Assembly: GCF_003570905.1 (NCBI RefSeq)
Contig: NZ_QXJM01000040.1
Coordinates: 620,001-684,000, forward strand
Direction: 5' to 3'
From: Cohnella faecalis
Lineage (GTDB): Bacteria > Bacillota > Bacilli > Paenibacillales > Paenibacillaceae
Length of the DNA: 64,000 nucleotides
The notes under the pieces were generated by a model that worked only from the letters and a program-made list of their open reading frames with translations, had not been told where the DNA came from and did no database searches. Within the stretch, counting starts at the first letter, position 1, and each line of letters begins with the position of its first letter. The translations under genes were made by a program, and so were the position numbers. This document shows, in pieces, positions 45,984-64,000 of this stretch.

Positions 45984-45986
45984 AGG

Positions 45987-46015: not shown

Positions 46016-46046
46016 GCGCTTGGTTGCGCAAGGAGGAATTGACCGA

Positions 46047-48251: not shown

Positions 48252-48731
48252 GTGCAAATCCAATTGGTCTGCGTCGGCAAGCTGAAAGAAAAATACTGGG
48301 TCGGAGCCGTCGAAGAATATGCAAAAAGGCTCGGCGCCTACGCCCGTCTCGACATCCGCGAGCTGCCTGACGAGAAGACACCCGACTCGATGAGCCCGGC
48401 GGAAGAAGATCAAGTGCGCTCCCGCGAAGGCGAGCGCATTCTCGCGGCTCTGAAGCCGGACGCCCATGTCGTGGCGCTAGCCATCGAAGGCGACACCTGG
48501 ACGAGCGAGCAGCTCGCCGCGCATCTAGACAAGCAAGCCGTCTACGGCGGCGGCTCGGTATCGTTCATCATCGGCGGCTCGTTGGGACTGTCGCCAGCCG
48601 TGCTGGCCCGCGCCGACAAGAAGCTAAGCTTCGGGCGGATGACCTATCCTCATCAGTTGATGCGGGTGCTGCTTCTTGAGCAGGTTTATCGAGGGTTTAA
48701 GATTAATCGGGGGGAACCGTACCACAAATGA
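48252..48731 (+). CDS. rlmH: 23S rRNA (pseudouridine-1915-N3)-methyltransferase
   Basis: 159 residues from GTG 48252, with CGGAGGG before it. A SPOUT methyltransferase with the knot motif [14 protein letters not shown] and the near-invariant C-terminus GEPYHK. It methylates m3-pseudouridine 1915 of 23S rRNA. In staphylococci the 3' end of this gene (orfX) is the attachment site of SCC elements. Here too the gene is intact and the foreign block begins at its stop codon. Confidence 0.98.
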
Positions 48732-48748
48732 GGCGAAGTTTTTCACAT
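48711..48748 (+). other. Candidate attachment junction at the 3' end of rlmH
   Basis: The sequence GGGGAACCGTACCACAAATG then AGGCGAAGTTTTTCAC resembles, from memory, the staphylococcal SCC junction GCATATCATAAATGATGCGG followed by a T run: same codons (ExYHK stop) and similar downstream bases. I found no second copy between here and the window end, so the far junction is probably outside. Confidence 0.55.
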
Positions 48749-48786
48749 TAATCGCTTGCTGGGCGTGGAAAGTCGCCCCTGAGGTG

Positions 48787-48810
48787 CAGGGTGGGGGATG
48801 GGCCACCCTG
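48787..48810. repeat. Perfect 8-bp inverted repeat just inside the element
   Basis: CAGGGTGG at 48787-48794 and CCACCCTG at 48803-48810, loop of eight. It follows a smaller GGGCG/CGCCC dyad at about 48759-48776. No gene product is implied; it could be a terminator without T-run or a recombinase/accessory binding site. Confidence 0.5.
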
Positions 48811-48895
48811 GGAAAGGTTCGTTATGCAGGCGGGCTTGTGCGGTTTGTTTGGGGACAATCAAAGGGAGTGTCTGAAGGAATTCAGAGAAGGGGGA

Positions 48896-49513
48896 ATGAA
48901 CAAGGTGACAAAAGAAACAAGTCAGTTAACTCAGTATGTTATTCTCATGCAAGTTGAAGTAATTCAGTTGCTGGAGGACTTTGCTGTTTGGTTAGGATTT
49001 AAAGATGATAAATTTAAGAAAGTTTCCGAACAGACAATACCAACGATATCGAAAGCAATACGACAATCCTTATTGACGAACATACTTATTTCTACCTGCA
49101 AGCTTTACGAATACCCCGGAAGGAACACTGCAAACGTTTCCTTGCGTCGTTTCTTGGATTATTTCAAACAAAACTTTGACAAAATTGTTCAATCACCCGT
49201 TCACAAGAACCTGACTATTGCTGACATCGAAGATGATCTTGAGAAAATAGATGAATTAAATAAAGCGATTACATCGACCTTTAATCTTCGCAATAAAATT
49301 CTTGGACACATTGATATTAATTATATAGGAGATGCTGGTAAACATTTAGCTGACTCTGTTCGCTCAAGAGATAGCCTGCTTAAACTGATAAACACAGCAG
49401 CAGTCATAATTCAAAAACATATGAAACCATTAATGTGTGGTGATTTGATATATCCTGCCACTGTGGCTTCTGAAATAAAGGTTCTGAAAAAATCCTTGAA
49501 GGATTACATGTAA
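48896..49513 (+). CDS. HEPN-domain protein, AbiU2-like
   Basis: 205 residues from ATG 48896, or 229 from the in-frame ATG 48824, which has a better spaced GGAAAGG. Fully helical. LRNKILGHIDIN (about 148-159) provides the RxxxxxH motif of HEPN RNases, and the earlier ISTCKLYEYPGR and VSLRRFLDYF are as in AbiU2-type HEPN proteins. HEPN RNases cut RNA in abortive infection and toxin-antitoxin systems. The gene is visibly AT-rich beside its GC-rich surroundings, showing recent transfer, and it lies between the rlmH junction and the recombinase operon. No obvious partner gene adjoins it. Confidence 0.65.
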   Translation: MNKVTKETSQLTQYVILMQVEVIQLLEDFAVWLGFKDDKFKKVSEQTIPTISKAIRQSLLTNILISTCKLYEYPGRNTANVSLRRFLDYFKQNFDKIVQSPVHKNLTIADIEDDLEKIDELNKAITSTFNLRNKILGHIDINYIGDAGKHLADSVRSRDSLLKLINTAAVIIQKHMKPLMCGDLIYPATVASEIKVLKKSLKDYM

Positions 49514-49546
49514 GAGCAATTGGAGAGGCTACTGTCCGGGTCCAGT

Positions 49547-51223
49547 TCAGATTGTAATGGTCAGTCGGTTCGTGAGATCCGGTACTTTCCGCTCAAATAG
49601 AAAGGCCCCTTCCTCCGCGATCGCGGAAGAAGGGGCTGCACTTAAAAAATGTTGTTCCGTCATCTCATCGAAGATCATTTCTATTTTGTCGACTTTCTTG
49701 TCGCTCGTAAGTGTGATCTTGCTGATGATGAGATGAAGCAATGTCTTTCGCTGATCGCGATTGGAGTACCTGAGCAAATGCTCGAATCGCCCCAAGAGCG
49801 AACGGACGGTTTCGTACGACACGGGTTCGGTGTAGTCGCCGGTCAGCATGTTTGCGATATCGGCTCTCCTGGCGTGCAGTTGGTAAAGATCGGAGTCGAG
49901 GTTCTTGATCCTCTCCGTTACGAATAATCGGTCAAAGTCGTCCAGTTCGCAAAGCTCGACGAGCCGATTCTTCTTCGCATTGATCTCCTCGATCCCTGAG
50001 CATACTGCTGCTAATTCCTCCTGAAGCGGCCTGACGCTATTTACTTTCCGGTCGTTGATCCCCCTCACGATGCCTCTCAAAATGTGCGGCTTTGCCAGCA
50101 CCTCCTTGAGTCTCGCGAACAAGTAATCTTCTGCGTCCTGCTTGCGAATGCTGTTCGCCTTACAGACGACAGCGCCGGAACTGCGCATTTTCGAGCAAGA
50201 GTAGTAGAAGCGCGTGATAAGGTTGCCGTGCTTGTCCTTGTTGTTGGTCCGGCTGCCGGTCATGGCCGAGCCGCAAACCGGACATCGGAGTAAACCTGTC
50301 AAGAGCAGATCTCCGTGAAAACGCTTTTCGGAGACGACAGACTTTTGCTGCCGCAAAAAACGCACCTTATCCCATAATTCCTCGGAGATAATCGGATCGT
50401 GCTGACCGTCAGCGATGATTGGATTGGTATTTTTGCCCTTTCGTCGCTTCTTGTTCCAGTCAAGATATTTAAGATAAATGATTTTCCCGACGTAAAAGGC
50501 GTTGTCCAGAATGTCACCGACAGCACAAATGGTGAAAGCATTGCCTTTCTTAGTTCTGTGCCCATCGCGGTTCAGAGAATTTGCGATGGAACGGAGCCCA
50601 CGACCCGAAGCAAACTGCTCAAAGATTCGGCGAACGATTGCCGCCTCTTCTGGGACGACCTCGATTCGTGTATTTCTCTTCCTGCCGCTTAGCGAAAGTA
50701 TTGCTACTTGGTAGCCGAGTGGCGCTCTCGTATTGTGCTTTCCAGTGCGTGCTCGCTGTTTTAATCCCATTTGAGCGTTTTCCAGGATCGTGTTGCGGTC
50801 GAGCTCGCTAAATGCGCCCATCATATGAAGATTGAACACCCCATGTTTCGTTGTTGTATCAACATGGCTTTCCGTTATAGATCGAAAACCGACATCGTGA
50901 CGGGATAGTTCATCAACAATTTTGAGTAGATCGAGATTGACTCGAGCCATTCGATTGACTTTCCACACAAGTACTTCTTGGAAGAGCCCTTTCTTCGCAT
51001 CGTTCAGCAGACGTTTAAGTGCAAACCGCTTTTCAATGCTGGTTCCAGTGATTCCACGATCGCAATACACTTCATAGACGACCTTGTTCGTTGCCTCGCA
51101 GTATTGGCGAAGGGCTTGTTCCTGTGCGACTATGGAATACCCGAGCTCTGCTTGCTCAGTAGTCGACACGCGGATATATAGTGCTGCGGCAACAGGGCTG
51201 TTTGATTCATTTGCGGACAGCAT
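49547..51223 (-). CDS. Large serine recombinase (Ccr-like), copy A
   Basis: 558 residues. Catalytic domain with Ser20 in ALYIRVSTTEQ, YCDRGITGTS and VWKVNRMARVN; then a recombinase domain (GVFNLHMMGAFSELDRN; PLGYQVAIL), a zinc ribbon with CPVCG and a later C...C pair (FYYSCSKMRSSGAVVCKAN), and a coiled coil (about 400-460). Such enzymes integrate and excise elements between short att sites. It is the last gene of the operon, starting two bases after the stop of the 137-residue gene. Ccr recombinases of SCC elements have the same size and architecture. Confidence 0.92.
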   Translation of the reverse strand: MLSANESNSPVAAALYIRVSTTEQAELGYSIVAQEQALRQYCEATNKVVYEVYCDRGITGTSIEKRFALKRLLNDAKKGLFQEVLVWKVNRMARVNLDLLKIVDELSRHDVGFRSITESHVDTTTKHGVFNLHMMGAFSELDRNTILENAQMGLKQRARTGKHNTRAPLGYQVAILSLSGRKRNTRIEVVPEEAAIVRRIFEQFASGRGLRSIANSLNRDGHRTKKGNAFTICAVGDILDNAFYVGKIIYLKYLDWNKKRRKGKNTNPIIADGQHDPIISEELWDKVRFLRQQKSVVSEKRFHGDLLLTGLLRCPVCGSAMTGSRTNNKDKHGNLITRFYYSCSKMRSSGAVVCKANSIRKQDAEDYLFARLKEVLAKPHILRGIVRGINDRKVNSVRPLQEELAAVCSGIEEINAKKNRLVELCELDDFDRLFVTERIKNLDSDLYQLHARRADIANMLTGDYTEPVSYETVRSLLGRFEHLLRYSNRDQRKTLLHLIISKITLTSDKKVDKIEMIFDEMTEQHFLSAAPSSAIAEEGAFLFERKVPDLTNRLTITI

Positions 51224-51225
51224 GA

Positions 51226-51639
51226 TTACTCTGATCCTTCTTGGAGGTACAGCTCCAATTCGACAGTGGCTTCCATCATTTGAAAGGCGAATCTGCCGCT
51301 AGCAGAGTTTAGATCGAGACGGCTATCGGGGACAGTCAGATCGACGGATGCAGCCCGGAGTTTTTTGGTGATCGTGAGGACGTCAATGGATCGGCGGCTT
51401 AAGCGCGACAAGTTATGAACCATGACCTCTTCAAACAAGCCGTTTTCGGCGTCTTCCAGCATCCGCAGAAGGGAAGGGGGATTGAGGCAAAGACCACTGA
51501 TCCCACGATCCATGTAGATTTGCACCAGGCATTTTCCTTGGTCTACACAAGCTTGTGCTAACGGATTAACTTGATCGGCAATGTTCTTGTTACTTTGGTT
51601 GGATCGGATATATAAGGCGACACGTTTCGGATTATTCAT
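51226..51639 (-). CDS. Stand-alone serine-recombinase catalytic domain lacking the catalytic serine
   Basis: 137 residues comprising only the resolvase-like domain: VALYIRSNQSNKNIADQV, then YMDRGISG, MVHNLSRLSRRSIDVL and a final MEATVELELYLQEGSE. Where the full recombinases have R-V-S after the YI strand this one has R-S-N, so the nucleophile position is asparagine. The arginine-containing LSRLSRR segment remains. The ORF is intact, with four-base overlap with the upstream recombinase and two-base gap to the next, so it seems maintained rather than decayed. It could form mixed oligomers with the active recombinases; that is inference. Confidence 0.75.
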   Translation of the reverse strand: MNNPKRVALYIRSNQSNKNIADQVNPLAQACVDQGKCLVQIYMDRGISGLCLNPPSLLRMLEDAENGLFEEVMVHNLSRLSRRSIDVLTITKKLRAASVDLTVPDSRLDLNSASGRFAFQMMEATVELELYLQEGSE

Positions 51640-53212
51640 GGGCTATTGGCCTCCGTTAAAGTTGGAATTTGTAAATTCAATAATGCGTTAGTGCTATGAA
51701 TCGTTGCCTGTCGGAAATCACGGTCCTTCGGCAGAGTGATCTTGTCGACCAGAAGACGGAGCAAGCGCTTTTGCTGTTCACCGGGGCTTGTTTCAAGTAA
51801 TTGACGTAATCGGGAAAGGGCTAGTCGAATTTGATCGGGATTGATTTCGTCTTTTTCGGATGCGACTAGTACGGCTTCCAACCGCTCTTTGGATGCCTGA
51901 GCTTCATTGATTTGAAGCTTTACCTCCATTATGGTGGCAGCGAACTCATCTTTCGACAACGCGCCCGATTCGAACGAGCGATACAGTACTTCCTTCTGGC
52001 TAGCAAGCTCTTTCAGCAGTACTTCAATTTGTCGAACTTCCTCCAGTGTTGGGCGTGTGTCGCTCTGATGCTTTGCGTTTGTCGCCGCGACAATTGTTTC
52101 GAGAGCTTCAGGTGCGGTGAGCAGCATCCGAAGTTGTTCGAAAAACCATTGTTCCACGTTGTCAGCCCGAACGAGGTTGGAGCGACAGACAGCGGAACCC
52201 TTGGAGTTATTTGTGCTGCATTGATAATAGTGATTCGTCTTCCGGGTTCCGTCTTTACGCATTTGATTCACGTGCCAGGGAATCATGCTGTATCCGCAGA
52301 GTGGACACTTAAGTAGGCCAGCGAGCGGATAGCTTCGTTCAATTTTTCGCAATGGCGGCGCGAAACGTTCGACGAGAAGAGTCTGGACGCGGTTCCAAAG
52401 ATCGAGATTGATGATCGCCCTATGAGTTCCTTGCGCCCAGCCGATCGCAACATCTCCACCCGTTCGGATGTGCTCGGTCTTGTTGTAACGGACAAGTCCG
52501 ATATAGTTGTGGTTATTCAATATATTTCTAATCAGTTGCACGCTAAAGGGTTTACCCAGCTTCGTCAGTCGACTGGCGTGGTTCAGTCGGTTAGAGATTG
52601 CCTTATACCCTAATTCGCCGGACGCGTACCACTCAAAAATATGGTTAACCAGTTCGGCTTCCTCGGGAACGACTTGAACTTGACCAAGAGTTGTCTCTGG
52701 GTCGCGGGTCCATCTGTAGCCAAGAACGGAATTTCCTGCGTTCCAGATGCCACTCTTGCTTCTTTGGTTCATAGCAGCACGAACATTATCCGCAATGTTT
52801 GATCGCTCTAACTCTGCCCTAGCCCCATGCATTTGGAGAACGAACTGGCCGATCGGGGTGCCGTCGAAAGGCTCTTTTAAACTGTACAGCATCACCTTGT
52901 GGCGGTTAAGGTGTTCCACGATGCCGAGAAGGTCCGTCAAGTTCCGAGCAAGTCGACTGATCCGCCAAATCAAAACCAGATCAAACTTTCCTCGTTCGGC
53001 ATCAGCCAGCATCCTCTTTAGCTCGGGACGTCCGGCTGCTTTGCTGCCGGAAGCCCCCTGTCGATGTAAGTATCATGAATACCGAGTTTGTTTAATTTGC
53101 AGTATTGCTTTAGTTCGTTCAATTGCCCGTCAATGCTAAATCCGTACTTCGCTTGCTCCTCAAGGCTTACCCGAATATAGATTGCAGTGCAGGAGCTTTT
53201 GGCTGGAATCAT
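51636..53212 (-). CDS. Large serine recombinase (Ccr-like), copy B (frameshifted)
   Basis: The N-terminal frame (from 53212) gives Ser16 in AIYIRVSLEEQAKYGFSIDGQ and ends early at 53018. The rest continues in another frame: GRPELKRMLADAERGKFDLVLIWRISRLARN, recombinase domain, zinc ribbon (CPLCG; YYQCSTNNSKGSAVCRSN) and coiled coil. Five G (53054-53058) where six are required cause the break; one more G joins YIDRG to ASGSKAAGRPEL and makes 525 residues. Its ATG overlaps the stop of the 70-residue gene. With copy A it would correspond to the paired CcrA/CcrB of SCC elements. Confidence 0.85.
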
Positions 53213-53421
53213 GCGACGGAACGAACCCGGAAGTCGGTCGTGACCAACAGCTCGCTCGTCATTTCAAAGTCGAGTTGCTCTTCCGTCTCCTTCTCCATTA
53301 TTGCGAGTGTGGCTTCACGAAGTTCGGGGCTGGCTTGTTTGGCCAAGTGCTTCGAGATCATGTCGCTCAAAATGTCGAGAGCGAGTTTACAACGAGCCTC
53401 AGCGTCTGGACCTGTCAACAT
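53209..53421 (-). CDS. Small helical protein in the recombinase operon
   Basis: 70 residues: MLTGPDAEARCKLALDILSDM, then SPELREATLAIMEKETEEQLDFEM. Helical and acidic. The start lies within the end of the 53-residue ORF and the stop overlaps the recombinase B start (ATGA). No family recognised. Confidence 0.6.
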   Translation of the reverse strand: MLTGPDAEARCKLALDILSDMISKHLAKQASPELREATLAIMEKETEEQLDFEMTSELLVTTDFRVRSVA

Positions 53422-53560: not shown

Positions 53561-53575
53561 TTACATTACCTCGCT

Positions 53576-53659: not shown

Positions 53660-53667
53660 TGGCCAAC

Positions 53668-53982
53668 TCAATAATCGTCCGGCAAAAGCATCGTACAGTA
53701 GTCACCGCTGTCAATAATCCAGACGGTGACGCCTGAAACGGGCTCTATGATGCCGGAGATTTCGTGTAGCTTTTTGCGTTTCGGTTGCTCCTGCTTCTGT
53801 CGAATGCGCTGGTATATCCGGTCACTATCATGGACAATTGACAACGTGAAGACTTGCAGGTAATCAAGCTCCTGCCCCTCGTCCAAGTCCCGATCGATAA
53901 GAGACCACAGAATTACTTGAAGTTCAGGTCCGATCATATCGTTGGCACGGCTCGTGACGTATCTTGCGTGTTTAGGGAACAA
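53668..53982 (-). CDS. DUF960 family protein
   Basis: 104 residues. It opens with a YVTSRAND segment, has LQVILWSLIDRDLDEGQELDYLQVF in the middle and closes with VWIIDSGDYCTMLLPDDY, the pattern of DUF960. From general knowledge, DUF960 genes lie near ccr genes in staphylococcal cassettes. Function unknown. Its ATG directly follows the RadC-like stop. Confidence 0.75.
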   Translation of the reverse strand: MFPKHARYVTSRANDMIGPELQVILWSLIDRDLDEGQELDYLQVFTLSIVHDSDRIYQRIRQKQEQPKRKKLHEISGIIEPVSGVTVWIIDSGDYCTMLLPDDY

Positions 53983-54441
53983 TTACATCAGCCCCCGTTC
54001 TTTCAGGGACACGAAGTTTCCGTTTCCGAGTACGATATGGTCCAAGAGCTCAATTCCGATCAACGTGCCGGTATCGCGAAGTCGCTCTGTAAGTTGAATG
54101 TCCTCCTGGCTAGGCGTCGGCTCGCCCGAAGGATGGTTATGACAAGCTATAATGGAGGCCGAGTTTGCCAGAATGGCGAGCTTGAACGTCTCTCTTGGAT
54201 GAACAAGCGATGCGTTCAAAGTACCGAACGAAACCTGATGTAGGGCGGTTGGCTCATTCTTTGTATTTAGACAAAGGATGCAAAACGATTCCCGATCAAA
54301 TTCGCCGATGAACTGACGAAAGATTTCAGCAGCGTCTTGAGGGGAAGAGATTTTCCTTTGCGGATAAAGAAGAGAAGTTTTTTCCCGAACCATTCGCAGA
54401 GAAACGATTTCGATGCGCTTGGCAGTATCCTTTTTGCTCAA
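53983..54441 (-). CDS. RadC/JAB-domain protein (short form)
   Basis: 152 residues. The JAMM metal motif is clear: ACHNHPSGEPTPSQEDI (HxH then SxxD), followed by DTGTLIGIELLDHIVLG. Full RadC proteins of about 225 residues have an N-terminal helix-hairpin-helix part that is missing here, as is usual for copies on mobile elements. A role in DNA repair is not proven for the family. It overlaps the upstream gene by four bases. Confidence 0.88.
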   Translation of the reverse strand: MSKKDTAKRIEIVSLRMVREKTSLLYPQRKISSPQDAAEIFRQFIGEFDRESFCILCLNTKNEPTALHQVSFGTLNASLVHPRETFKLAILANSASIIACHNHPSGEPTPSQEDIQLTERLRDTGTLIGIELLDHIVLGNGNFVSLKERGLM

Positions 54442-54809
54442 CGGTAATCACCTCCGACGCTAGCGTTCTCGGCCAGCCAGCATTCCGTTTCCCCATCTAG
54501 CGTTCCGGCGAGAATCAAATACTGGACGAAAGCGTCGTTGTCCAGCAAAACGCCAACTCGGTACAGCGTCAAACCGGGAAGCACGATACGTTCAACGTAC
54601 TCAGGGCCGAAAGGAGATTGCGCTAGCCAGCTGAGAAGAGGATCGTTAGTCTCGCAAAGGTGGATCGGATTCTCGTGTAGGAACTCTTCGTCCCCGCCAA
54701 GCTCTTCGCTGTGATCGGATAATAAGTCTGTTACGAACTGTACTAGCAGCTCGGGGAAAACTCTGCTATTCAATGCCCGTAAGTCAGTTTCGCTTTGGAT
54801 GGTTATCAA
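54438..54809 (-). CDS. Acidic protein of unknown function opening the recombinase operon
   Basis: 123 residues, acidic: LSDHSEELGGDEEFLHENP and DNDAFVQYLILAGTLDGETECWLAE. No family recognised. First gene of a run of overlapping genes ending with recombinase A. An IR of TGATCTTG/CAAGATCA with a 25-base spacer lies just upstream (54810-54850), and a possible -10 (TATTAT, reverse strand) around 54851. Confidence 0.6.
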   Translation of the reverse strand: MITIQSETDLRALNSRVFPELLVQFVTDLLSDHSEELGGDEEFLHENPIHLCETNDPLLSWLAQSPFGPEYVERIVLPGLTLYRVGVLLDNDAFVQYLILAGTLDGETECWLAENASVGGDYR

Positions 54810-55133: not shown

Positions 55134-58073
55134 TCAGGTTTCGTCAAAGAGGTTCCCTGGTTCGGACTTTTGGGTCACGGCGCGGGTTCTTTTGTCGCGC
55201 TTTCGGGCTTCGGTCTCGTCCGGAACGGCTACGCTTTCCTTCTTGATCCAAAGCACGGGAACCCTCACGCCTCTGACGGTTTTTCGCCGGATTCTTTTGA
55301 CCTTCTCAACACCGTTCTCCATGTACGTTTCCGTGGAGAGTGCCCCCTCCACTTCAAGCTGCTTCCAGAGTGCCGCCATCTTGAGCGGGATGTGCTCGTG
55401 CTGATTGGCGAGGAAGGAGCTTACTTCGTTGTAAAGGACTGTCGGGAGGAAGTAGTAGTAATCCTTGTCGTGCCAGCCGACATGCTTTCCTGGGAAATCT
55501 TTCTCCGATTCGTAAGGGCTATTCAGGCTTCGGACGTAAATCGTCCTGTTTTGCAGCAACTCCGAAACGGTGTCCATAAATTGCGTGGTCGGCATCGACT
55601 CCCGGACGCTTTCGCTCTGGCTGTCCGCCAGCGAGAGCAAGATTCTCCAGCCATTCACGAGGCGGTATTTTCTCTCGTCCTCCGTCACGGCACCGATGTA
55701 GACGGCGTAGTTCAAGAAGCTTTGCAGGCCCAGAAAGAGCCACGCGATCGTTTCGGCGATCCTCCCATGAGAGCTAGAGGATTCGGCTTCGCTGCGCTTT
55801 GCCGCAAAAGTTTCCTTTAATTGTCGTGAGAGGTCATTGTTGGTCATCTGGCGTCCGAGCCAACGAGTGTACCCTAGCATGGCTTCTGCGAGATGAGGAG
55901 CGTGCAGCTGAGCTTTTGTAAGCTTCTCTTTGTTCACGTCCTTGGGCAACAGTTCGAGTCCGAGAAGCCGCGCGTTACTGGAATGACCGTAGGGAAGCTG
56001 TTCGCCGGTGTCGAGCGCGAGGCCTTTGGGCGCGAAGTCCTGCCGCAGAGTCGCGTCTGCCCTCATCCGGCCCCTTGCGACCCGGTCGCCGTAAGCCCGG
56101 ATGTGCGACTGGGCCGTCTGCTCCATCTTACGAGCTTCGAGCGGATTCTGCGTTGGATGGAAGTCGTCGATCCAAAGCACGCTGTCCTTGCAGGCGAACG
56201 CTCTTCTTTCTAATGAATTAGCTGTATCTCTGTAGCTGGCTGGCGGACTCTTCGCCGTAAAGCGACCGAACAGGCAAAGGAAAAGTGCCGAAATCGTGGA
56301 CTTCATTGCCCCAGTCTGCCCGTAAAGCCAAACAACGAAAGCAGGTTCGATTTCAATCTTTCTCAGGATCTCGCAGAGAGGTGCCAAGAACATTGTTGCG
56401 ATTAAAGGATGCGTTACGCGCTCATTCGCGACTTCGAGCAGATCAAAGCATCGTTCGACGGCTGCAATGGGGTCTGGCTCTTCGGACGGAAGAATGTAAC
56501 GGCTTAGTCGTGAATCCACCTCGACCTGCACGTTGTTGTCATCCGAGCATCCTCCGGCATGGAGGTATTTCCATTCCCCGTCGATGTTGCGAAAGCCTAA
56601 GTGAGTGTAGACTACAGTGTTTTTGACGCGGTGCGACAGCAACTGCACGGTGTGGCGCACTCGATCCTTATTGTAGTTGCCCGGAAAAATCGTCGGCCTG
56701 AGTCCCCAGCGTATGACCCACTTTGTCGGATCGTGAAAGTCTTGGTGATCTACCCGTAGCGGCGGCAACATGGTATCGTCGTCAAGCAGCACACCGGTGA
56801 CTACGAAGCAGCGCTCTTGCGTCGCTCCATCGTCGAGGCATACTTCCTCCTCAGGAACAGCCACGAAATTGGCGAAAGGCTTAAACACTTCATCGCCACT
56901 CTTGTTAACGTCGACTTGGCCGATCGCTCCGTGCTGTACGCGATAGCGGGTAAACGTCTTAACCAGTTCAGCGATGTCGCCCGTATTCGAAGATTTCTCG
57001 GCCTTGAGGAAGGCAACGGGGCTGTTCGTAATCTCGTTTTTCTCGTTTTTTCTGAGTTTTCCGAAGCACCGCTTGATCTGGTCCGCATCGCAGCCAAGCG
57101 TGGTGCAGCGGGTCGGACCGAAGTCTTTCTTGGTCATGTTCTCGATCTCGGTACGGCTGTTTTCGTTATGCTTCTTGCTGGAGGCTTCGGAAAAGGCAAG
57201 CGCATCCTCGACCGACCCGGCTTTGACGAGCAGGGAGGCAGTATGGAACCACTTGTGCCAGTCACAGCCATCACCATTCTGCAACTCCCAAGCTTCCGAA
57301 ACTTTGGCGCACTGGTTCCTCAAAATCTCATCTTTTTCGTTTCTATTGCTGCTTGGGCTATTCGAGGTTCGACCAGCACTTGTTTTGCTTTGAGTGGGCT
57401 TGTTGTCTAGTTGCTGTTTTATGGATTGGCCCGAACCGTTATTTGATGAAGTATCTGAGTCGTCGAAAAGAACATCCAAAGCCAGAGCGAGCGACATTTT
57501 TTGGACCATCCAGTCTGGTGCGGCTGCAAGTTCGATTTCGTCGGGACTATGACCATCAACCCACAAGTAAGTACCGCCATTCTTGTGCCGCGACGGAGGC
57601 ATGACAGTTTGTTGTCCGTCAATGAGGAAGTTAAGCTCTTGGTGAACTGCACCGGGAAGGGAGTCAGAATACTTCCTCAAAGGCACTCCTTCAGGCGCTA
57701 GAAACAGGTAACGATGTCCGCCGCCCGGAGTGGTAAACTCCCAGGTTGCGGGTATTTTACCGCCAGAAATAATCTCAAGCTGCTCACGACCGTAATCGCC
57801 GTCAACGTCGATGGCGACAATGCCGCCTCTCACACCCGTCAGAACTCCGACGTTGGCCGCCATGTACTTGTCGAACCATTCAGCAACGATTTTAGGGTCG
57901 TTGCTCGCTCGGGCTGTCCAATTGCCGATTAGCGGTGCTTTACCAGACTTGGTACAGTCATGGCGATGTTTCTCGCTCATTCCATGATGATTATATGAGC
58001 ATAGCGGAATGACGCGAAGTCCCAGCTCAGCGTATCGTTGAGCAGCCTGGTGAATTGTTTTGTATGGGGTCAT
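55134..58073 (-). CDS. Primase-polymerase/DUF927 helicase of the element
   Basis: 979 residues. The N-terminal part (about 5-200) fits a bifunctional primase/polymerase domain: HQAAQRYAELGLRVIPLC, GVLTGVRGGIVAIDVDGDYG (paired aspartates) and TPGGGHRYLF. The middle (about 260-340) has a helical primase-associated segment. The C-terminal half resembles DUF927: a superfamily-3-like ATPase with Walker A GQTGAMKSTISALF (about 590) and Walker B VLWIDDFHPT (about 645). It would load at an origin and prime replication of the excised element, comparable to the replication genes of SCC elements. GGAGGCGAT precedes the ATG. Confidence 0.85.
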   Translation of the reverse strand: MTPYKTIHQAAQRYAELGLRVIPLCSYNHHGMSEKHRHDCTKSGKAPLIGNWTARASNDPKIVAEWFDKYMAANVGVLTGVRGGIVAIDVDGDYGREQLEIISGGKIPATWEFTTPGGGHRYLFLAPEGVPLRKYSDSLPGAVHQELNFLIDGQQTVMPPSRHKNGGTYLWVDGHSPDEIELAAAPDWMVQKMSLALALDVLFDDSDTSSNNGSGQSIKQQLDNKPTQSKTSAGRTSNSPSSNRNEKDEILRNQCAKVSEAWELQNGDGCDWHKWFHTASLLVKAGSVEDALAFSEASSKKHNENSRTEIENMTKKDFGPTRCTTLGCDADQIKRCFGKLRKNEKNEITNSPVAFLKAEKSSNTGDIAELVKTFTRYRVQHGAIGQVDVNKSGDEVFKPFANFVAVPEEEVCLDDGATQERCFVVTGVLLDDDTMLPPLRVDHQDFHDPTKWVIRWGLRPTIFPGNYNKDRVRHTVQLLSHRVKNTVVYTHLGFRNIDGEWKYLHAGGCSDDNNVQVEVDSRLSRYILPSEEPDPIAAVERCFDLLEVANERVTHPLIATMFLAPLCEILRKIEIEPAFVVWLYGQTGAMKSTISALFLCLFGRFTAKSPPASYRDTANSLERRAFACKDSVLWIDDFHPTQNPLEARKMEQTAQSHIRAYGDRVARGRMRADATLRQDFAPKGLALDTGEQLPYGHSSNARLLGLELLPKDVNKEKLTKAQLHAPHLAEAMLGYTRWLGRQMTNNDLSRQLKETFAAKRSEAESSSSHGRIAETIAWLFLGLQSFLNYAVYIGAVTEDERKYRLVNGWRILLSLADSQSESVRESMPTTQFMDTVSELLQNRTIYVRSLNSPYESEKDFPGKHVGWHDKDYYYFLPTVLYNEVSSFLANQHEHIPLKMAALWKQLEVEGALSTETYMENGVEKVKRIRRKTVRGVRVPVLWIKKESVAVPDETEARKRDKRTRAVTQKSEPGNLFDET

Positions 58074-58146
58074 TAGAAGAATCGCCTCCTAGTTTTAGGT
58101 GATTTGGACGGTTCCGCCGGTTAGTCAAGCGGAACCGTTCGGCAGA

Positions 58147-58626
58147 TTATTCTTCTGACTCGACTGTTTCGCTTCCGTCAGCCTCTTCGGTGACGGCTTC
58201 TTCGTCCGGTACAGCTTCGACGTTGTCGATGTTGGTGTATACGTTCCCGTTTTTGGTCACGGTTTTAAGCGAGAGAATTACCTCTTGACCGACAAGAGAA
58301 TCGACGTCAAGCGACTCGCCGCGACCGGGCATACAACCCGTGACTTCCAGCAACTTAAAGTAGGAAGAAGACGGATGACGGTAATCGGGCTTAAGCAGGA
58401 AGGTTTCGGTTTGCTCGTAGTCATCCTTATCCGTGACGGTGACAACCAGTTTGAGCAATAGCTTGCCGTTGATTTCAACGACGGTCGCTTCATTGATTTC
58501 CGACACGTACTTGTCGTCCTTCAGGAAATCCTGAAGCGGACGTACAAGGGAGAGGGACGAACCAGCATTTACAAGCGGCTGCTCAGCATTTACTTTTGCG
58601 GAATTAATTTTTTTAAAAGGCACCAT
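58147..58626 (-). CDS. Small protein with acidic tail, possible ssDNA-binding partner
   Basis: 159 residues. A beta-rich core (INEATVVEINGKLLLKLVVTVTDKDDY; VGQEVILSLKTVTKNGNVYTNID) ends in a tail of almost only acidic residues (EEAVTEEADGSETVESEE). An OB-like fold with acidic tail would recall single-stranded DNA-binding proteins; this is inferred from shape and neighbourhood, not from a recognised family. GGAGG before the ATG; 73 bases ahead of the helicase gene. Confidence 0.6.
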   Translation of the reverse strand: MVPFKKINSAKVNAEQPLVNAGSSLSLVRPLQDFLKDDKYVSEINEATVVEINGKLLLKLVVTVTDKDDYEQTETFLLKPDYRHPSSSYFKLLEVTGCMPGRGESLDVDSLVGQEVILSLKTVTKNGNVYTNIDNVEAVPDEEAVTEEADGSETVESEE

Positions 58627-58767
58627 GTATAAAAACCTCCATGAAAATTAGTTTTTAATGATCGATTTGGTTGTAGTAAGATGAAGGAGGATGGTGTTCG
58701 TCTAATACCGAAACAATCCCATTCGCATGATTGCCGGGCTTTGTGCCTGGTCTTTTTCTTTTTAGCG

Positions 58768-59286
58768 CTACTCCCCGAGAGATTCTCTCGTCCGGCCTAG
58801 CTCTTCGTCCTCGCTATCCTCAACTTCAGGCGCGCTTGCTTCGGTGAAGTCGGGTTCCTGTTCCTCCGAAGCCGTGTCCGAGCTCTGAGTGATCGGAATA
58901 AAAGCCACAGGGACTTTACCATCATTCAGGTAAGTTACCTCGTAAAACGATATGCTGGTCTTCCCATCGAAATTGAGATTGAAGAGGGCCGCAATCGTGT
59001 CGACCAACTGGCTGGAGTACACGCACGGCTTTTTGCCAGCTTTTCGCAAAACAAAGGAGGTCCCACCGTCGGGAAGCCCTTGACTGATGGCAATCCCATT
59101 TTCATTGACTGACACTTGAATCTCGGTCGGCGACCCGATGTACTCCAAGATGCTCTGCGAAAAGGGCATGCGTTTGCCAAACTTCGAGGTTTTGACGAGC
59201 GTAAGCTCACTCGGATCGGCTGCATCCTTGCTTTTATACGCGATATGAAGCGGAGCAAGGTTGTGTAAAATATTTTCTGTTTGCAT
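58768..59286 (-). CDS. Acidic-tailed protein of unknown function in the replication module
   Basis: 172 residues from ATG 59286, which follows AAGGGGC. Mixed core (ILEYIGSPTEIQVSVNENGIAIS; GKTSISFYEVTYLNDG) and a C-terminal tail rich in Glu and Asp (SEEQEPDFTEASAPEVEDSEDEE). The upstream in-frame start at 59382 lacks a ribosome site. No family recognised. Probably one transcript with the 159-residue gene and the helicase. Confidence 0.65.
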   Translation of the reverse strand: MQTENILHNLAPLHIAYKSKDAADPSELTLVKTSKFGKRMPFSQSILEYIGSPTEIQVSVNENGIAISQGLPDGGTSFVLRKAGKKPCVYSSQLVDTIAALFNLNFDGKTSISFYEVTYLNDGKVPVAFIPITQSSDTASEEQEPDFTEASAPEVEDSEDEELGRTRESLGE

Positions 59287-59785
59287 AAGTGCCCCTTTCT
59301 TGGCAAAGGTTATTTGCCATTCCGTTGAAATGTTGTAACTCGTATCCCTGGTTAATATTCGACAACCATGGAGTGAAGCCACTTTGGCTCAGAAATCAAT
59401 ATCACTGTTGTTTTATGCGAATAGTCGGATTTAATCGAACGACCATTCCCACCAGACAGAATCCTGATGCCGGGTACAATCAGCAACTTGGACGCGAGAT
59501 GGCGAGCCGATTTTTCTCGATCGCATGTCGCAAGTGAACCCCCGATTGAAACAGTACACGAATTTGGTTGCCGGCAACAACTCGGGAATTAGCTGAGCGA
59601 AATTTCTCCAACTAGGTAACCTCCCTTCATTTTAGGAATCTAAGATATTCAATTTTCAAGTTACGAAAGCCGCCTGCAAGTAAGGCAATCAGGAAGCTTG
59701 TAAGCGACTGCTTTATTAAAATACCAAATGAGAAAAGCACAGAATATAACTGCTGTTTTAAAAACGGATTATTGCAGCTTAAAAC
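59287..59785. other. Non-coding stretch of the element
   Basis: Nearly 500 bases where I see no credible gene on either strand; the short open frames have no ribosome sites. The right half is AT-rich. It must hold the promoter of the replication genes and might hold an origin, but I see no iterons. Confidence 0.55.
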
Positions 59786-59825
59786 GCAAAAAAAATTCAG
59801 AGATCCATTATTGGACCTCTGAATT
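59786..59825 (-). terminator. Terminator of the 252-residue gene
   Basis: On the reverse strand TTCAGAGGTCCA pairs with TGGATCTCTGAA, followed by eight T. The stem begins in the last codons of the gene. Confidence 0.9.
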
Positions 59826-60566
59826 GAAGAATTGGTTAGTGTATTCATCATTTGCTTTTTTTAAATGATCGCCGATTAGGTTGTCCAAAAGATGGACCTC
59901 AGGGTCGATCCCGGTTCTAATCTTCTCCAATTTTTCATCGGTGTTGCGCTTGATTTGCTCCCTAACAGCTTCTTCCGAAACTTCTGCACCCTCTTTTTCA
60001 AGAATTTCGAGGGCATCAGATTTTTCGTATTCCCCGAGCGCTTCAAATGCCCCTTCCACGAACTCGTCAACTCTTTCTTCGACGATGCGCAAAATCTCAA
60101 CCCCAACTTTGGCTGGTGAAAGGTAAAAAAGAAACTCAAGTTTTTCTACAAGAATGTGTATACGCTGAACGTGTTGTTGAATTTGTTCAGCTTGCTCAAA
60201 GCGTTCGTCCGCTGTGATTTCTTGTTGGAACTCTGAAGGCATCTTGTTGATTTCTTCGATTAGTTTGGTGTGATAATCAAATATCTCGCTGATTCTAACG
60301 TTCTCCCATTTCCTGTTTTTGTGCCATAAAGGGCGATGCTTAGATACCGCTAGCAAAGCGGCTAGCAGATGCATCTCCTTTTCGGAGAACGCATATTCAA
60401 TTGTCTTCTTAGAATTTAGTACCGCTCGGTTTTCATAATCAATATCGAATGACTTGCCAATTTTGAAAACAGCTTCATTAGCTCTTCCCCTGAAAGTTGA
60501 ACTTTCATTATTCTTAACGTGTCGCGCAATGTCAGTGATTGTTTTGTGTTTCTGTTGTTGCTTCAT
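59808..60566 (-). CDS. Coiled-coil-rich protein of unknown function
   Basis: 252 residues, AT-rich. An N-terminal stretch (RGRANEAVFKIGKSFDIDYENRAV) is followed by long charged helices (EIFDYHTKLIEEINKMPSEFQQEI; EQAEQIQQHVQRIHILVEKLEFLF; VEERVDEFVEGAFEAL). No membrane segment or catalytic motif. Its own terminator and AGGAGC site mark it as a single unit and likely cargo. Confidence 0.65.
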   Translation of the reverse strand: MKQQQKHKTITDIARHVKNNESSTFRGRANEAVFKIGKSFDIDYENRAVLNSKKTIEYAFSEKEMHLLAALLAVSKHRPLWHKNRKWENVRISEIFDYHTKLIEEINKMPSEFQQEITADERFEQAEQIQQHVQRIHILVEKLEFLFYLSPAKVGVEILRIVEERVDEFVEGAFEALGEYEKSDALEILEKEGAEVSEEAVREQIKRNTDEKLEKIRTGIDPEVHLLDNLIGDHLKKANDEYTNQFFNSEVQ

Positions 60567-60665
60567 GAGCTCCTCCTGGTAAAAGATTGGTTCGTTAGGA
60601 GATATTATACGCTTATGAAGTTCAACAGCAAAGAACGAGGTAGAGGTGCTATATAATCATTTACA

Positions 60666-60697
60666 TAAAAACCATCACCCGGTAAGGGTGATGGTTC
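60666..60697 (-). terminator. Terminator of the stalk-domain gene in the element
   Basis: On the reverse strand AACCATCACCC pairs with GGGTGATGGTT, then TTTATG. Confidence 0.85.
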
Positions 60698-60762
60698 AAC
60701 TTTTTGAAATAAATCTTCAGAAAAATTCGGGTCAAGCGGATGAATGTGAAACTTGCTTGCAA

Positions 60763-62058
60763 TTATTCAAAATCAACATATTTGAAAAACTCGCCTTTAT
60801 TGGTTGTAATCATGACAAAGAACGAACCGGACTGTGCGGTCAGAGGATTTCCTTTACTGTCTTTAAAAGAGCTTATAGGAATAGTCAGACTGCCGTCCGG
60901 TAATTCAGTCTTGCTTGTCGGCACATATTCGTAATCATTAATCTGTACTTTGGTAATCTCTAAACCGTAGGTGTAGGTACGATCGTTGATTAGCAATCCC
61001 TCGTCGCTTAATGTGACGAGTAACAGTTTATTAATGCGCTCTTGGGTTTTTTTGTCCAAAGCCGACCAGTCGATTGAGCCACCTTGCGATTGCTCCTTTT
61101 CGATGTCGTACTCTTCGGAGACGCTAAGGAAATTCCCGGCAGCAACAGCATACAACGGCTCCTGCCACGTTGCTCCAAGAGCGTTTGTTAGTTCAATCTG
61201 CGTTTTGCCGACCGGGATGCCGTTTACAGTCGCTTTATCGCCCTTTTTCAGATCATTAGATCCTAAATAAAAAATGACGAAGTACGTGCTGTCTTTCCAC
61301 GACTCAGTGATCTGGCTATACGTTCCGCCAGTGTGACCGATCGCTCCGGTTACGACCTGTCCATTGCTCAACTTAAATTCTTGAACGCTATCGAGTTCAA
61401 CGGGCGAAAGGCGAACGATTGCACTGTAATAGCTAGAAACTTTCTTCGCGATGTCTTTTGCCGAGACGGTTTTGGCTACTTTCTTAAGCGAAAGCGGAGA
61501 CCGGTCCTTGGCAAAAAACTCCTTCTGGTATTTAGTGAGGGCCGAAACGCTTTCCGAGTTCAAGTTCAGATCTGCCGAGAAGGATTTCAGTGCATTCTGT
61601 AGGTTTTCGATCTCTGGAATACTTTTTGTCGTCAGACTGGCAGTCGTAATGGTGACTGTTTTCGTCTTGTCGTTCCAGCTTGCCTTGACTCCGAGAGCTT
61701 GCGCCACTTTCAGAAGCGGAATATGCGTGCTGCTGCTAATGGTCGGATTCGTAACACCAGTGATGACCTTACCGTTAACAATCAGGCGGGCGGCTGAAGT
61801 TCGTTTCATTTTCTTGGCCTGCTCGATACCTTTGCCGACAATAACACTGTTGCTTTCCTTATGGAACGTAGACGTGACTCCAAACAATTTGGACGTGTCC
61901 TTGAACGGAATGTATAACGTTCCCTTTTGCGTTTTTACATTGACTCCGGTCACGGCTTTTCCATTGACTGTCAGCTTGATTGGTTGGGCTGCGAGAGTCG
62001 GTACAGCGAATGTAAGTAACAGTATAACTGCCATTAAAGGTGCGAGTAATTTCCTCAT
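60763..62058 (-). CDS. Secreted protein with two stalk-type (copper-amine-oxidase N-terminal) units
   Basis: 431 residues. Signal peptide with APLMAVILLLTFAVPTLAA (cleavage about 23), then two related units with GTLYIPFKDTSKLFGVTSTF and STHIPLLKVAQALGVKASWND, each preceded by a VNGK strand. A domain of about 280 residues follows that I do not recognise (IVRLSPVELDSVQEFKLSNGQV; TYFVIFYLGSNDLKKGDKATVNG). AAAAGGAGAC lies before the ATG. Such proteins attach to the Paenibacillus surface; its presence in the element suggests it has long circulated in this lineage. Confidence 0.7.
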   Translation of the reverse strand: MRKLLAPLMAVILLLTFAVPTLAAQPIKLTVNGKAVTGVNVKTQKGTLYIPFKDTSKLFGVTSTFHKESNSVIVGKGIEQAKKMKRTSAARLIVNGKVITGVTNPTISSSTHIPLLKVAQALGVKASWNDKTKTVTITTASLTTKSIPEIENLQNALKSFSADLNLNSESVSALTKYQKEFFAKDRSPLSLKKVAKTVSAKDIAKKVSSYYSAIVRLSPVELDSVQEFKLSNGQVVTGAIGHTGGTYSQITESWKDSTYFVIFYLGSNDLKKGDKATVNGIPVGKTQIELTNALGATWQEPLYAVAAGNFLSVSEEYDIEKEQSQGGSIDWSALDKKTQERINKLLLVTLSDEGLLINDRTYTYGLEITKVQINDYEYVPTSKTELPDGSLTIPISSFKDSKGNPLTAQSGSFFVMITTNKGEFFKYVDFE

Positions 62059-62096
62059 TGAGAATCGTCTCCTTTTGCATGTGTGGATTATCGTTT

Positions 62097-62715
62097 CTAT
62101 TCCATAAACAGTTTTTTGGCGATCTTGCCTACTCCGCTGGTTGAAGCTCCGTCAATAACGGCTCCGGTGATGCCCCAACGACCGGGATGGCTTTAGACAG
62201 ATTGACGACGCCTTTGGTGCCGTACTTGGTAAGCAGCCTGAAACCGACTTTTGGTTGATCTTCTTGATAACTTCGTAAGACAATTGCTTCAGTCCCTGCT
62301 CCGCGAACTTTTTGCCGACTTCTATTCCGACATCTTTAAGAATGCTGGTGGCTGCGTTTCCGCATAGACAGGCATAAGCCATGGCGCGTACCTTATCATC
62401 CGTTACGTCGTGCCCAGACAGAATCGCGATCGCGGCGATCATCCGAAGCTGGATGTAGAGAACTGACGCAAGGTTTGCCGGAATCGTGACCGGCATGGTC
62501 ACAATACCACCTAGCCCGGTAATGAACCCGGAAATGGCACTTTTTCCGCTCTGCCATCTTATGAGCGCGTCAATCTGCGCTCCGACATTGTCTCCCTTTT
62601 TTCCGTACTCTTCCGCCATCTCATAAGCATCGTTTGTTCCAGGCACCCCACCGGTGATTGCTTTCTCGTACGCCCAATCCAGTGCTTTGCTAATTGCCCC
62701 TTGCGTAATCGCCAT
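62097..62715 (-). CDS. EcsC family protein (two frameshifts near the end)
   Basis: It starts MAITQGAISKALDWAYEKAI, with GGAGGAAAA upstream, and contains ISGFITGLGGIVTMPVTIPAN and LCGNAATSILKDVGIEVG as in EcsC-family proteins. The frame goes astray after KKINQK. Four A at 62249-62252 (five needed) and four G at 62173-62176 (five needed) account for it: with both restored, the end reads VGFRLLTKYGTKGVVNLSKAI then PVVGGITGAVIDGAS and stops at 62097, 206 residues. EcsC relatives associate with membranes; function unknown. Confidence 0.75.
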
Positions 62716-62842
62716 TAACCTTTTCCTCCCCGAGAGTTCACTATTTCGTTCGGCATTCTTGCACCGTTCGTCAAAAAGTGATTCGCAGCCAAGTTCCCAA
62801 ATCCTACTTTTAACTTCCAAATGGTTCCTCTGACCTACCATG

Positions 62843-62891
62843 ATTATACAAGACTAATAAGTTCATAAACAACAAAAACTGAACTTATAAT
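62843..62891. promoter_or_regulatory. Divergent promoters around a 9-bp inverted repeat
   Basis: ATAAGTTCA (62857-62865) and TGAACTTAT (62880-62888) are perfect complements 14 bases apart. TATAAT lies at 62886-62891 on the forward strand (towards the XRE gene) and at 62843-62848 on the reverse strand (towards the EcsC gene). A repressor bound here would cover both -35 regions; the XRE protein is the obvious candidate. Confidence 0.6.
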
Positions 62892-62949
62892 AGCCTTCTA
62901 GCGAACATTCGCCTTCTCTACCATTAGAGGTAGGAAGAAGGGTGATCGA

Positions 62950-63330
62950 ATGGATGGTCAAGATATAGATTTGAAGGTTTTAGTAGGAAAAAGAGTCCGG
63001 CAGTTGAGGAAGATCCAGGGCTGGTCGCAGAGTGAGTTGGCTTTTCGCGCAGACATGCAGGAGAGCTACCTTGCAGGCATGGAAAGAGCTGACCGAAACG
63101 TAACCCTCGACTCGCTGGCCCGAGTTCTGACAGCTTTGGGGGTAGAGCCGATTGAGGTTTTTCGGTTCGGAGAATTAGAGATCGGAAAGGGGCTTGAAGG
63201 AAAGCAAGCCGCTATAAGGCTGCACGCTGCATTCCTAGACGAACGCAGTCTGGAGGAAGTCGAGCTAATTCGAAGGCTGGCTAAGGATGTCATGGCAACG
63301 ATTGATTCGCAAAAGAAAAAGCAAGAATGA
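62950..63330 (+). CDS. XRE-family transcriptional regulator
   Basis: 126 residues. Cro/CI-type helix-turn-helix at about 14-68: VGKRVRQLRKIQGWSQSELAFRAD, then ESYLAGMERADRNVTLDSLARVLTALG. The C-terminal part (EERSLEEVE-like region and KDVMATIDSQKKK) is helical without a peptidase motif. AAGGGTG stands before the ATG. It probably controls the divergent EcsC-family gene and itself through the inverted repeat. Confidence 0.88.
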   Translation: MDGQDIDLKVLVGKRVRQLRKIQGWSQSELAFRADMQESYLAGMERADRNVTLDSLARVLTALGVEPIEVFRFGELEIGKGLEGKQAAIRLHAAFLDERSLEEVELIRRLAKDVMATIDSQKKKQE

Positions 63331-63334
63331 GAGT

Positions 63335-63371
63335 GCCCGATTCCCGGAGGAATCGGGACATTTGTTTTATA
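63335..63371 (+). terminator. Terminator after the XRE gene
   Basis: CCCGATTCC and GGAATCGGG form a perfect stem; ACATTTGTTTT follows. Confidence 0.65.
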
Positions 63372-63939
63372 TCGGGTAATACCGATCAAGATATTCCCTG
63401 ACGGCGGCGTTGAACAGGTTGGCAATCTTGGCGAACTCGCCGCGCTGGTGCAAGTTGTGAACGCGCCGGTACAGCGGCTTCTCAAGGTATGTCGTGATCC
63501 GCTCATACCGATCCCCGAAAGGCAGCGACTTTCGCTTGAGCGGGCTGGATGCTGATTTGGGCCCTCCGATTTTGCCAGGATGGCTTGTGGCGGGCCTTTC
63601 GACTTCCAGAGCTTCTTGCCAGGTTGCTTGCTGGACTGGTTGCGGGGCGATCTTTTTTGGTCGAAGCTTGGGTCCTGGGGCTACACTTGGCTTGTTGACC
63701 GGCTTCGCCTGCCTGGGCTTCGAAGATTCGACAAGGACGTCGATATGATCTTCGTCGCTTGGAAGATTCGTATCCGACGCTAAAGTATCGCTTGAAAAAT
63801 CTTCTTGTTCGATCGGAAACACTACATTTGTCTCACCCGGGACGTCAGCGGCGATGGAATTGATTGTCTTAAAATCCCTAAATCCTTTTGCGCGTGATAG
63901 ATCGGATAGTTTAAATGACCTCTCCCTCATGTTTTCCAT
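63367..63939 (-). CDS. Protein with probable C-terminal DNA-binding domain, unknown function
   Basis: 190 residues. The N-terminal RERSFKLSDLSRAKGFRDF precedes a long Pro/Lys/Gln-rich linker (about 70-135). The C-terminal 50 residues (RYERITTYLEKPLYRRVHNL then GEFAKIANLFNAAVREYL) look like a ribbon-helix-helix-type or similar compact domain, as in plasmid and element regulators or partition proteins. That is inference from pattern. GAGGGAGATG precedes the start. The last 60 bases of the window hold nothing I can assign. Confidence 0.55.
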   Translation of the reverse strand: MENMRERSFKLSDLSRAKGFRDFKTINSIAADVPGETNVVFPIEQEDFSSDTLASDTNLPSDEDHIDVLVESSKPRQAKPVNKPSVAPGPKLRPKKIAPQPVQQATWQEALEVERPATSHPGKIGGPKSASSPLKRKSLPFGDRYERITTYLEKPLYRRVHNLHQRGEFAKIANLFNAAVREYLDRYYPI

Positions 63940-64000
63940 CTCCCTCGAAAATTTGGGGGATGTACCTGCGTCTACATCAATATCAACTTTTATGTCGACC

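Follow-up and report, generated by a model that had tools for sequence, protein, structure and literature searches.

A staphylococcal-cassette-like element at the 3' end of rlmH in Cohnella faecalis that probably opens an integron-like array of small units

The closest described relatives of the element considered here are the staphylococcal cassette chromosomes (SCC), which carry methicillin resistance in staphylococci and among which tandem units with several direct repeats (GAAGCATATCATAAATGA and variants) are known (PMC4723332). The Enterococcus cassette chromosome also occupies the rlmH end, where it carries ccrAB and a 50-bp dyad-symmetric attachment (att) site, with multiple right-hand sites (attR) in 16 of 32 elements (PMC6222049). 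Moreover, SCC-like islands at the rlmH end have been described from several Bacillota, including composites in Paenibacillus pinistramenti (PMC10061031), and from outside the staphylococci in PMC10581047; all four papers are cited here for the available parts of their texts. The subject of this analysis is a 64,000-nucleotide (nt) stretch of Cohnella faecalis DNA (the window: positions 620,001-684,000 of contig NZ_QXJM01000040.1, hereafter C34, of a 6.43-Mb draft genome), in which an element of this general kind begins at the 3' end of rlmH. Compared with related genomes, it is probably a 28.5-kb SCC-like element that opens an integron-like array built on SCC-type att sites, with enzymes resembling the cassette chromosome recombinases (Ccr) serving in trans. 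Positions prefixed C34, and the att positions given below to six figures, count along the whole contig; all others count along the window.

The two features that define the start of the element are the following.

48252..48731, + strand: rlmH, the target gene (PF02590, E 4e-56), whose last codons and stop make up the left att site.
48712..48739, + strand: attL, from a weight-matrix scan, consisting of the GAACCGTACCACAAATGA core (48714-48731) and the left inverted repeat TGAGGCGAA (48729-48737).

The original prediction, made on the letters of the window, had placed the start of a foreign, AT-rich block at the rlmH stop codon, with junction bases like those of SCC, and in these respects it holds. 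Indeed, the last bases of rlmH, up to 48731, form an att core of SCC type, GAACCGTACCACAAATGA followed by GGCGAAGTTTTT, and the G+C content per 1-kb step, which is 0.50-0.67 before 49 kb, drops to 0.40-0.55 beyond it (mean there 0.49). The far end, rightly expected outside the window, was found at C34:697,240, some 13 kb further on, giving an element of 28.5 kb. An att direct repeat with a TAYCAYAA core stands at both ends (C34:668714 and 697240), and the element opens with TGAGGCGAA and closes, before C34:697240, with the matching inverted repeat TTCGCCTCA. The prediction had also looked for a second copy of the rlmH-end sequence. In the literal sense there is none, as CCGTACCACAAATGA has one exact occurrence in the genome, with related cores recurring downstream on the same strand; in the wider sense there is one, in that an att repeat with matching inverted repeats lies 28.5 kb downstream, inside the approximately 100 kb over which its absence had been named as a counter-indication.

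In all, C34 holds eight att sites, every one on the + strand, at 668,714 (rlmH), 697,240, 699,989, 714,355, 716,744, 727,305, 730,525 and 734,979. Together they enclose seven closed units in 66 kb, of which the window element is the first, and the units after it measure 2.7, 14.3, 2.4, 10.5, 3.2 and 4.4 kb. A single large element ending at 734,979 is ruled out by the matching inverted repeat at 697,240 and by the later units having their own ends. When a weight matrix built from these eight sites was tested leave-one-out, the sites scored 24-33, each of them coming directly after the training sites in the ranking (ranks 3-9 in 307 kb), against a best background score of 12.6 in the 128 kb upstream of rlmH and of 19.0 in the best of three shuffles. 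Weaker matches of the matrix lie at 741,851 (- strand, exact core), 762,734 (+) and 806,165 (+).

The arrangement recurs well beyond this genome. All 60 relatives searched have rlmH, and up to 20 kb behind it were read in 35 of 36 same-genus genomes and in three of 23 genomes of other families; G025 (a 35-residue rlmH fragment, 78% complete) and the secondary places L101 and L102 are left out of the site and unit counts. As the coding sequence would predict, rlmH has an att-like end in all 35 same-genus stretches, 28 of which contain at least one more att site behind it. The sites beyond rlmH number 85 on the rlmH strand, as opposed to one on the other strand and one in shuffled sequence (the own genome included; seven of the 85 are its training sites). 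The exact core GAACCKTAYCAYAARTR is present in 36 of 37 genomes of the genus, where a control pattern gave one match. Across 197 genomes of the family it occurs 716 times, compared with five for the control pattern, with at least one core in 181 genomes, at least three in 97 and at least five in 57; some Paenibacillaceae genera average only 1-2 exact cores per genome. In eight genomes chosen for their long contigs (G257 also for its many sites), there are 43 sites apart from those at rlmH, and 26 of these are on the rlmH strand no more than 100 kb downstream, where 0.35 would be expected. One genome of another genus (G271) has 16 sites on one strand in the 94 kb from rlmH, and G023 has 14 in 107 kb, the recombinase being present in both arrays only as fragments. 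A looser form of the core occurs at least once in 82 of 121 genomes of the class Bacilli. Strings of att sites are, in other words, usual in the genus and common in Paenibacillaceae. Secondary arrays that start at copies of the rlmH tail were looked at in two places, G024 (L101 around 10020-10144) and G344:C3:614301-614533 (L187).

The sites bound 86 closed units in 30 genomes (the seven own units included), ranging from 119 bp to 28.5 kb with a median of 3.1 kb, 67 of them below 6 kb, in arrays that reach 15 closed units. Only five carry a large serine recombinase (528-561 aligned residues in four, 384 in one) and six a fragment of one, while 75 of the 86 gave no recombinase trace at E 1e-6. 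The ends of these units are paired: the end-to-end match is 8.17 out of 12 within a unit and 7.01 between units, a difference reached in 0 of 2000 shuffles (84 units, the two below 250 bp being left out), and a unit's own far end also matches better than the neighbour's across the same core (7.84 against 6.98; 55 units). Of the open reading frames in the units, 211 of 332 are on the + strand. Their cargo, scanned in 158 proteins of at least 150 amino acids (aa) from relatives' units of up to 9 kb and taken as the 25 commonest families per scan, with no enrichment claimed, includes short-chain dehydrogenases, TetR and WYL/helix-turn-helix (HTH) regulators, major facilitator superfamily transporters, S-layer proteins and ATP-binding cassette (ABC) transporters; matches of PADLOC type include DzbA, NsnA, AriA, PD-T4-6, AbiLi, Old, GajA and PtuA.

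It is conceivable, in this regard, that the arrays are no more than autonomous SCC-like elements stacked at rlmH, whose recombinases were later deleted, with no small cassettes ever mobilised in trans. The recombinase fragments in six of the 86 units are of the kind that such decay would leave, as is the split in LSRA, one of the window's own recombinase genes, and there are precedents in the staphylococcal composite islands with several direct repeats (PMC4723332) and in the enterococcal remnants (PMC6222049), so far as the available text of each describes them. Deletion would, however, have to have removed every trace of recombinase from 75 units which nonetheless retain matched terminal repeats, and a 2.7-kb unit, together with its right att core, occurs at 94% identity in two species with different neighbours. 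We therefore regard stacking and decay as a possible but on balance unlikely account of the arrays.

Signs that units have moved between genomes come from several comparisons. Among 122 sites flanked on either side by 500 nt, a scope that omits nearly every rlmH site, 21 pairs share the left flank only, three the right flank only and none both. About seven of these cases are independent, including one of 500 nt at 92% identity and another, shared by the own genome and a different genus, of 476 nt at 90%. The stretches shared by unit pairs are 90-96% identical in six of seven pairs (80% in the seventh), as against 65-87% for rlmH; in particular, species with an rlmH nucleotide identity of 65-87% share four stretches of 1.6-2.8 kb at 93.6-95.8% identity. 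Furthermore, the own 10,544-bp unit matches a 10,638-bp unit of G010 in reverse order over about 2.3-9.9 kb (4101 bp at 90%, 982 bp at 88%, and shorter pieces with gaps), the bordering cores facing the same direction in both.

C34:716744-727305 (L023, L024) and L094:461-11116: element family of about 10.5 kb, inverted between two species, in which the 3' end of a recombinase gene overlaps the att site in both.

The same element family thus appears to have entered in both orientations. A possible vehicle, suggestive only, is the 2.7-Mb plasmid NZ_CP054613.1 of Paenibacillus cellulosilyticus, which has seven cassette-end-like places and a Ccr-like recombinase; it is among five plasmid records that match a composed cassette-end sequence, two of them at E <1e-4.

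Units might also be shuffled without any site-specific recombinase, by homologous recombination between conserved cassette ends or by transformation with long flanks. One end type shares up to about 190 nt of similarity, enough for some exchange, several shared stretches end before the cores, and a 924-bp segment is repeated within the own array. What such exchange would not give is the strand bias of the sites, their origin at the rlmH end, the dyad symmetry of the cores and a unit inverted between sites of the same direction, and we consider it improbable as the main source of the pattern. Because most shared stretches end before the cores, some weight has nevertheless been moved towards it, and slightly away from the reading preferred here.

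A further thought is that the core does not recombine at all, but is a terminator or regulatory element that chances to follow rlmH. A terminator-like CACCC...GGGTG hairpin does precede 10 of 22 type-I ends in the stretches read (in the own array, sites 697240, 699989, 714355, 716744 and 730525), and in 71 of 83 units the last gene, in 49 of 83 the first, is oriented towards the right end. Such a repeat would hardly show flanking sequence in common on just one side of the core, nor would it be expected that six Ccr-like genes of other families (G085, G111, G125, G155, G164 and G175) have their 3' ends within 200 bp of such a core. In addition, the TATCATAA centre is common to the att sites of staphylococci and enterococci in the available text of PMC4723332 and PMC6222049. 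Taken together, these points make a non-recombining repeat highly improbable.

The enzymes themselves are encoded close to the rlmH end of the window element, where the original prediction had two tandem recombinases of Ccr size. Three resolvase-type genes are found instead, one of them intact and of that size, one domain-only and one split.

49547..51223, - strand: LSRB, an intact Ccr-like large serine recombinase of 558 aa (NCBIfam CcrB, 380 bits; tree).
51226..51639, - strand: resolvase-domain-only protein of 137 aa with Asn at the catalytic Ser position (PF00239; alignment with three intact counterparts; AlphaFold).
51636..53012, - strand: LSRA, a second Ccr-like recombinase, C-terminal 458 aa (NCBIfam CcrB, 226 bits), out of frame with its N-terminal piece.
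53018..53212, - strand: LSRA, N-terminal piece of 64 aa in another frame (PF00239, E 1.3e-5).

CcrB is the best NCBIfam family for all three genes (380, 226 and 75 bits). In a 53-row tree, made after dropping the duplicate rows L089, L091, L114, L126 and L133, LSRA, LSRB and a second own enzyme group with both G152 rows and the enzymes of rlmH-linked loci, a 100/99 branch leading to 11 others. G152 is taken as staphylococcal because it holds the one CcrB match over the cut-off, and both of its rows sit on long branches; for 10 of the 11 other rows the listed cores are elsewhere or none, the core positions of L118 (G154) not being listed. By this placement, the window recombinases belong with the Ccr branch of large serine recombinases. 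A second own recombinase pair (284 and 524 aa) is carried by the 10.5-kb unit.

The same results bear on whether the block could be a prophage, or an unrelated integrative element whose serine integrase is of phage type, which two profile matches (the phrog_95 integrase and the phrog_1156 primase) might suggest. Phage structural families are absent among 18 window proteins by Pfam and nine by PHROGs, and phage recombinases reach only 27-31% identity and at most 178 bits, as against 36% and 310-313 bits for the staphylococcal plasmid-borne enzymes, with the tree placing the window enzymes with Ccr. One 24-nt form of the att site, moreover, has no exact match in IMG/VR. A phage origin is disfavoured by gene content and by the far end, and is the least probable of the readings considered.

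The 137-aa protein between the two recombinases is an unusual component, and its counterparts adjoin or lie between two large recombinases.

51226-51639; L135:2134-2568; L134:9959-10444; L136:9977-10402: resolvase-domain-only proteins.

Intact counterparts occur in Cohnella fermenti (144 aa), Paenibacillus thalictri (161 aa) and Paenibacillus sp. J2TS4 (141 aa), with a remnant in Paenibacillus sp. RC67. The catalytic Ser is the nucleophile of serine recombinases, and Asn takes its place in all four intact proteins (N14 invariant). The AlphaFold model of the 137-aa protein has a resolvase-like alternation of strands and helices and a long last helix (predicted local distance difference test score, pLDDT, 78.9). 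The protein is likely to be catalytically dead; perhaps it acts in mixed dimers. LSRA is broken at two of the four loci that have it. A wide spread of the gene was considered and rejected: it is rare (the own copy, the three intact copies and the remnant), most other fetched recombinase loci are without it, and among 197 family genomes no match but the own copy has an open frame of about 138 aa, a count that leaves aside frames of 161 aa (G230) and 181 aa (G014).

Several observations weigh against the reading of a working, trans-mobilised array. The own sites served as the training set for the weight matrix, the own contig has an opposite-strand core at 741,860, and two exact cores lie on another contig (C33). 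Seven of the 35 same-genus stretches have no further site, two of these being short (2.9 and 7.3 kb), and in the eight long-contig genomes 17 of the 43 non-rlmH sites are elsewhere, in secondary clusters or single, with none of four behind rlmH in G035. Of the 24 flank-sharing pairs, 17 have fewer than 200 nt in common, a single end type accounts for many, and in two both members come from the same genome. Only the L083/L088 alignment reaches the att core in both genomes, the others ending about 30-200 bp or more before the cores or sitting inside a longer unit; because most alignments end short of the cores, the shared stretches indicate transfer more firmly than they do unit borders. The recombinases miss the CcrA, CcrB and CcrC equivalog cut-offs (best 380 against a cut-off of 900), and LSRB has matches below 1e-40 in only eight of 36 genus genomes, such that most arrays are now without a visible LSRB-type enzyme. 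LSRA is split across two frames (51636-53212), which may be genuine decay or an assembly error; since LSRA is broken, the window copy of the element may be stuck. The own genome is a draft of 92% completeness and 6.9% contamination.

If units do move in trans at rlmH, as we think likely, the process can be pictured as follows. An excised circle would carry the att core too, and the recombinase would bring this copy together with the one at the rlmH end; a primase would presumably copy the circle. As the core is nearly palindromic, units could insert in both orientations and would each retain a terminal inverted repeat of their own. Every insertion would add one att core, and because each leaves this further core behind, units would pile up behind rlmH with their sites in one orientation. 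Units that lack a recombinase would be cut and moved in trans by the Ccr-like enzymes of a visiting element such as that of the window.

The remaining genes of the window element are these.

48791..49513, + strand: AbiU2-like HEPN protein, cargo between att and the recombinases (PF18734, E 4e-11).
53668..53982, - strand: DUF960 protein (PF06124, 'Staphylococcal protein of unknown function', E 1.1e-16).
53983..54441, - strand: RadC/JAB protein (PF04002, E 8.6e-43).
54438..54809, - strand: small protein of 123 aa, no Pfam family, with tblastn relatives.
55134..58073, - strand: primase-polymerase (Prim-Pol) with a probable helicase part, 979 aa, the replication module (PF09250, E 3.2e-31; DUF927, E 0.0032).
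58147..60566, - strand: three proteins (159, 204 and 252 aa) upstream of the primase, no Pfam family.
60763..64000: cargo, by Pfam a copper-amine-oxidase-N-type protein, an EcsC-like protein, an HTH regulator (+ strand) and a 190-aa protein.

DUF960 is present in SCC core loci. Read towards rlmH, the gene order is Prim-Pol, 123-aa protein, RadC, DUF960 and the recombinase genes. The DUF960 and RadC/JAB proteins of the original prediction are borne out by Pfam at the E values listed. Of its primase and DUF927-type helicase, the Prim-Pol part is clear and the position upstream of the recombinase operon fits, the DUF927 match being weak, below its gathering score. No PDB match to the Prim-Pol protein was found at E 0.01; its relatives are in L147 and L148, with the end of another in L135. 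Relatives of the 123-aa protein adjoin RadC in L134, L135 and L138, with weaker tblastn matches away from RadC in L147 and L148, and those of the 204-aa protein are in L140, L147 and L148. A role as single-stranded-DNA-binding protein (SSB) is not claimed for the 159-aa protein, its model being too poor (pLDDT 53). The AbiU2-like protein has no PADLOC match. Further out, the element matches PADLOC profiles for DndB, DndC, DndD (or PbeC), DndE, a DndA/SspA-type desulfurase and a SWI2/SNF2 helicase; these Dnd-type phosphorothioation genes are carried as defence cargo at C34:690920-697056 (L022:4920-11056), with the SWI2/SNF2 helicase gene alongside. On the other side, directly 5' of rlmH (45807-47918), are genes that by eye resemble queC, queD and queE.

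Seen more broadly, Paenibacillaceae may possess an integron-like system that works with Ccr serine recombinases: a platform at rlmH, recombinase-less cassettes with paired terminal repeats traded between genera and inserted in either orientation, enzymes supplied in trans by occasional autonomous elements and, at some loci, a dead Ser-to-Asn subunit perhaps setting direction or site choice. On this wider proposal our judgement is evenly balanced. It matters because the origin of the cassettes of staphylococci, and the movement of small units without a recombinase, are open questions, and a mostly environmental family with up to 15 units at the same site and on the same att core is a natural reservoir to examine. 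The Paenibacillaceae arrays could, moreover, serve as a model for testing trans-mobilisation, insertion orientation and the recognition of cassette ends, and the stretch behind rlmH is a place in which to seek defence and adaptive genes in this family.

A literature search for Cohnella with rlmH found nothing, and a search over titles and the starts of abstracts, with most subscription papers not covered, found no paper describing small, recombinase-less cassettes arrayed throughout the family. That rlmH-targeted cassettes extend beyond staphylococci, as the prediction proposed, is supported here, yet was already in print (PMC10061031 and PMC6222049, in their available parts). What appears to be new is the array of small, mostly recombinase-less cassettes at rlmH. 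With SCC the window element shares the rlmH 3' target, a TATCAYAA att core with direct repeats, degenerate inverted repeats and Ccr-like large serine recombinases. It differs in having recombinases below the CcrA/B/C equivalog cut-offs and an extra resolvase-domain protein, in a single Prim-Pol where some SCC have a PolA-SSB primase pair and a helicase (PMC10061031, available part), and in belonging to a kind of array that reaches 15 closed units, most of which lack a recombinase. By its insertion at the rlmH 3' end, att repeats, terminal inverted repeats and Ccr-branch enzymes it can be counted as SCC-like, though below the strict SCC cut-off. The Pol-SSB rlmH islands of PMC10061031 have the same site and logic, and that of P. 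pinistramenti is our locus L138, whose recombinases branch near those of the window; the window element differs in carrying a Prim-Pol protein instead. That paper, in its available part, follows the primase and treats composites in passing, and contains there no family-wide att count, cassette ends or recombinase-less units. The Enterococcus elements are of 21-78 kb, with no arrays of small cassettes described in the available text of PMC6222049. The integron integrase, a tyrosine recombinase (TIGR02249), exceeds its cut-off in none of 13 genomes, weak matches being found in all 13 and likewise in all 14 control genomes (five in the own genome, all on other contigs). Like integrons, the arrays have an anchored site that gathers small units with a common recombination site, the recombinase lying mostly outside the units, and a cargo of regulators, reductases, transporters and defence-type genes; unlike them, they use SCC-type att sites, and their units carry genes in both directions. 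The array works like an integron without being one, and belongs with the SCC-like elements.

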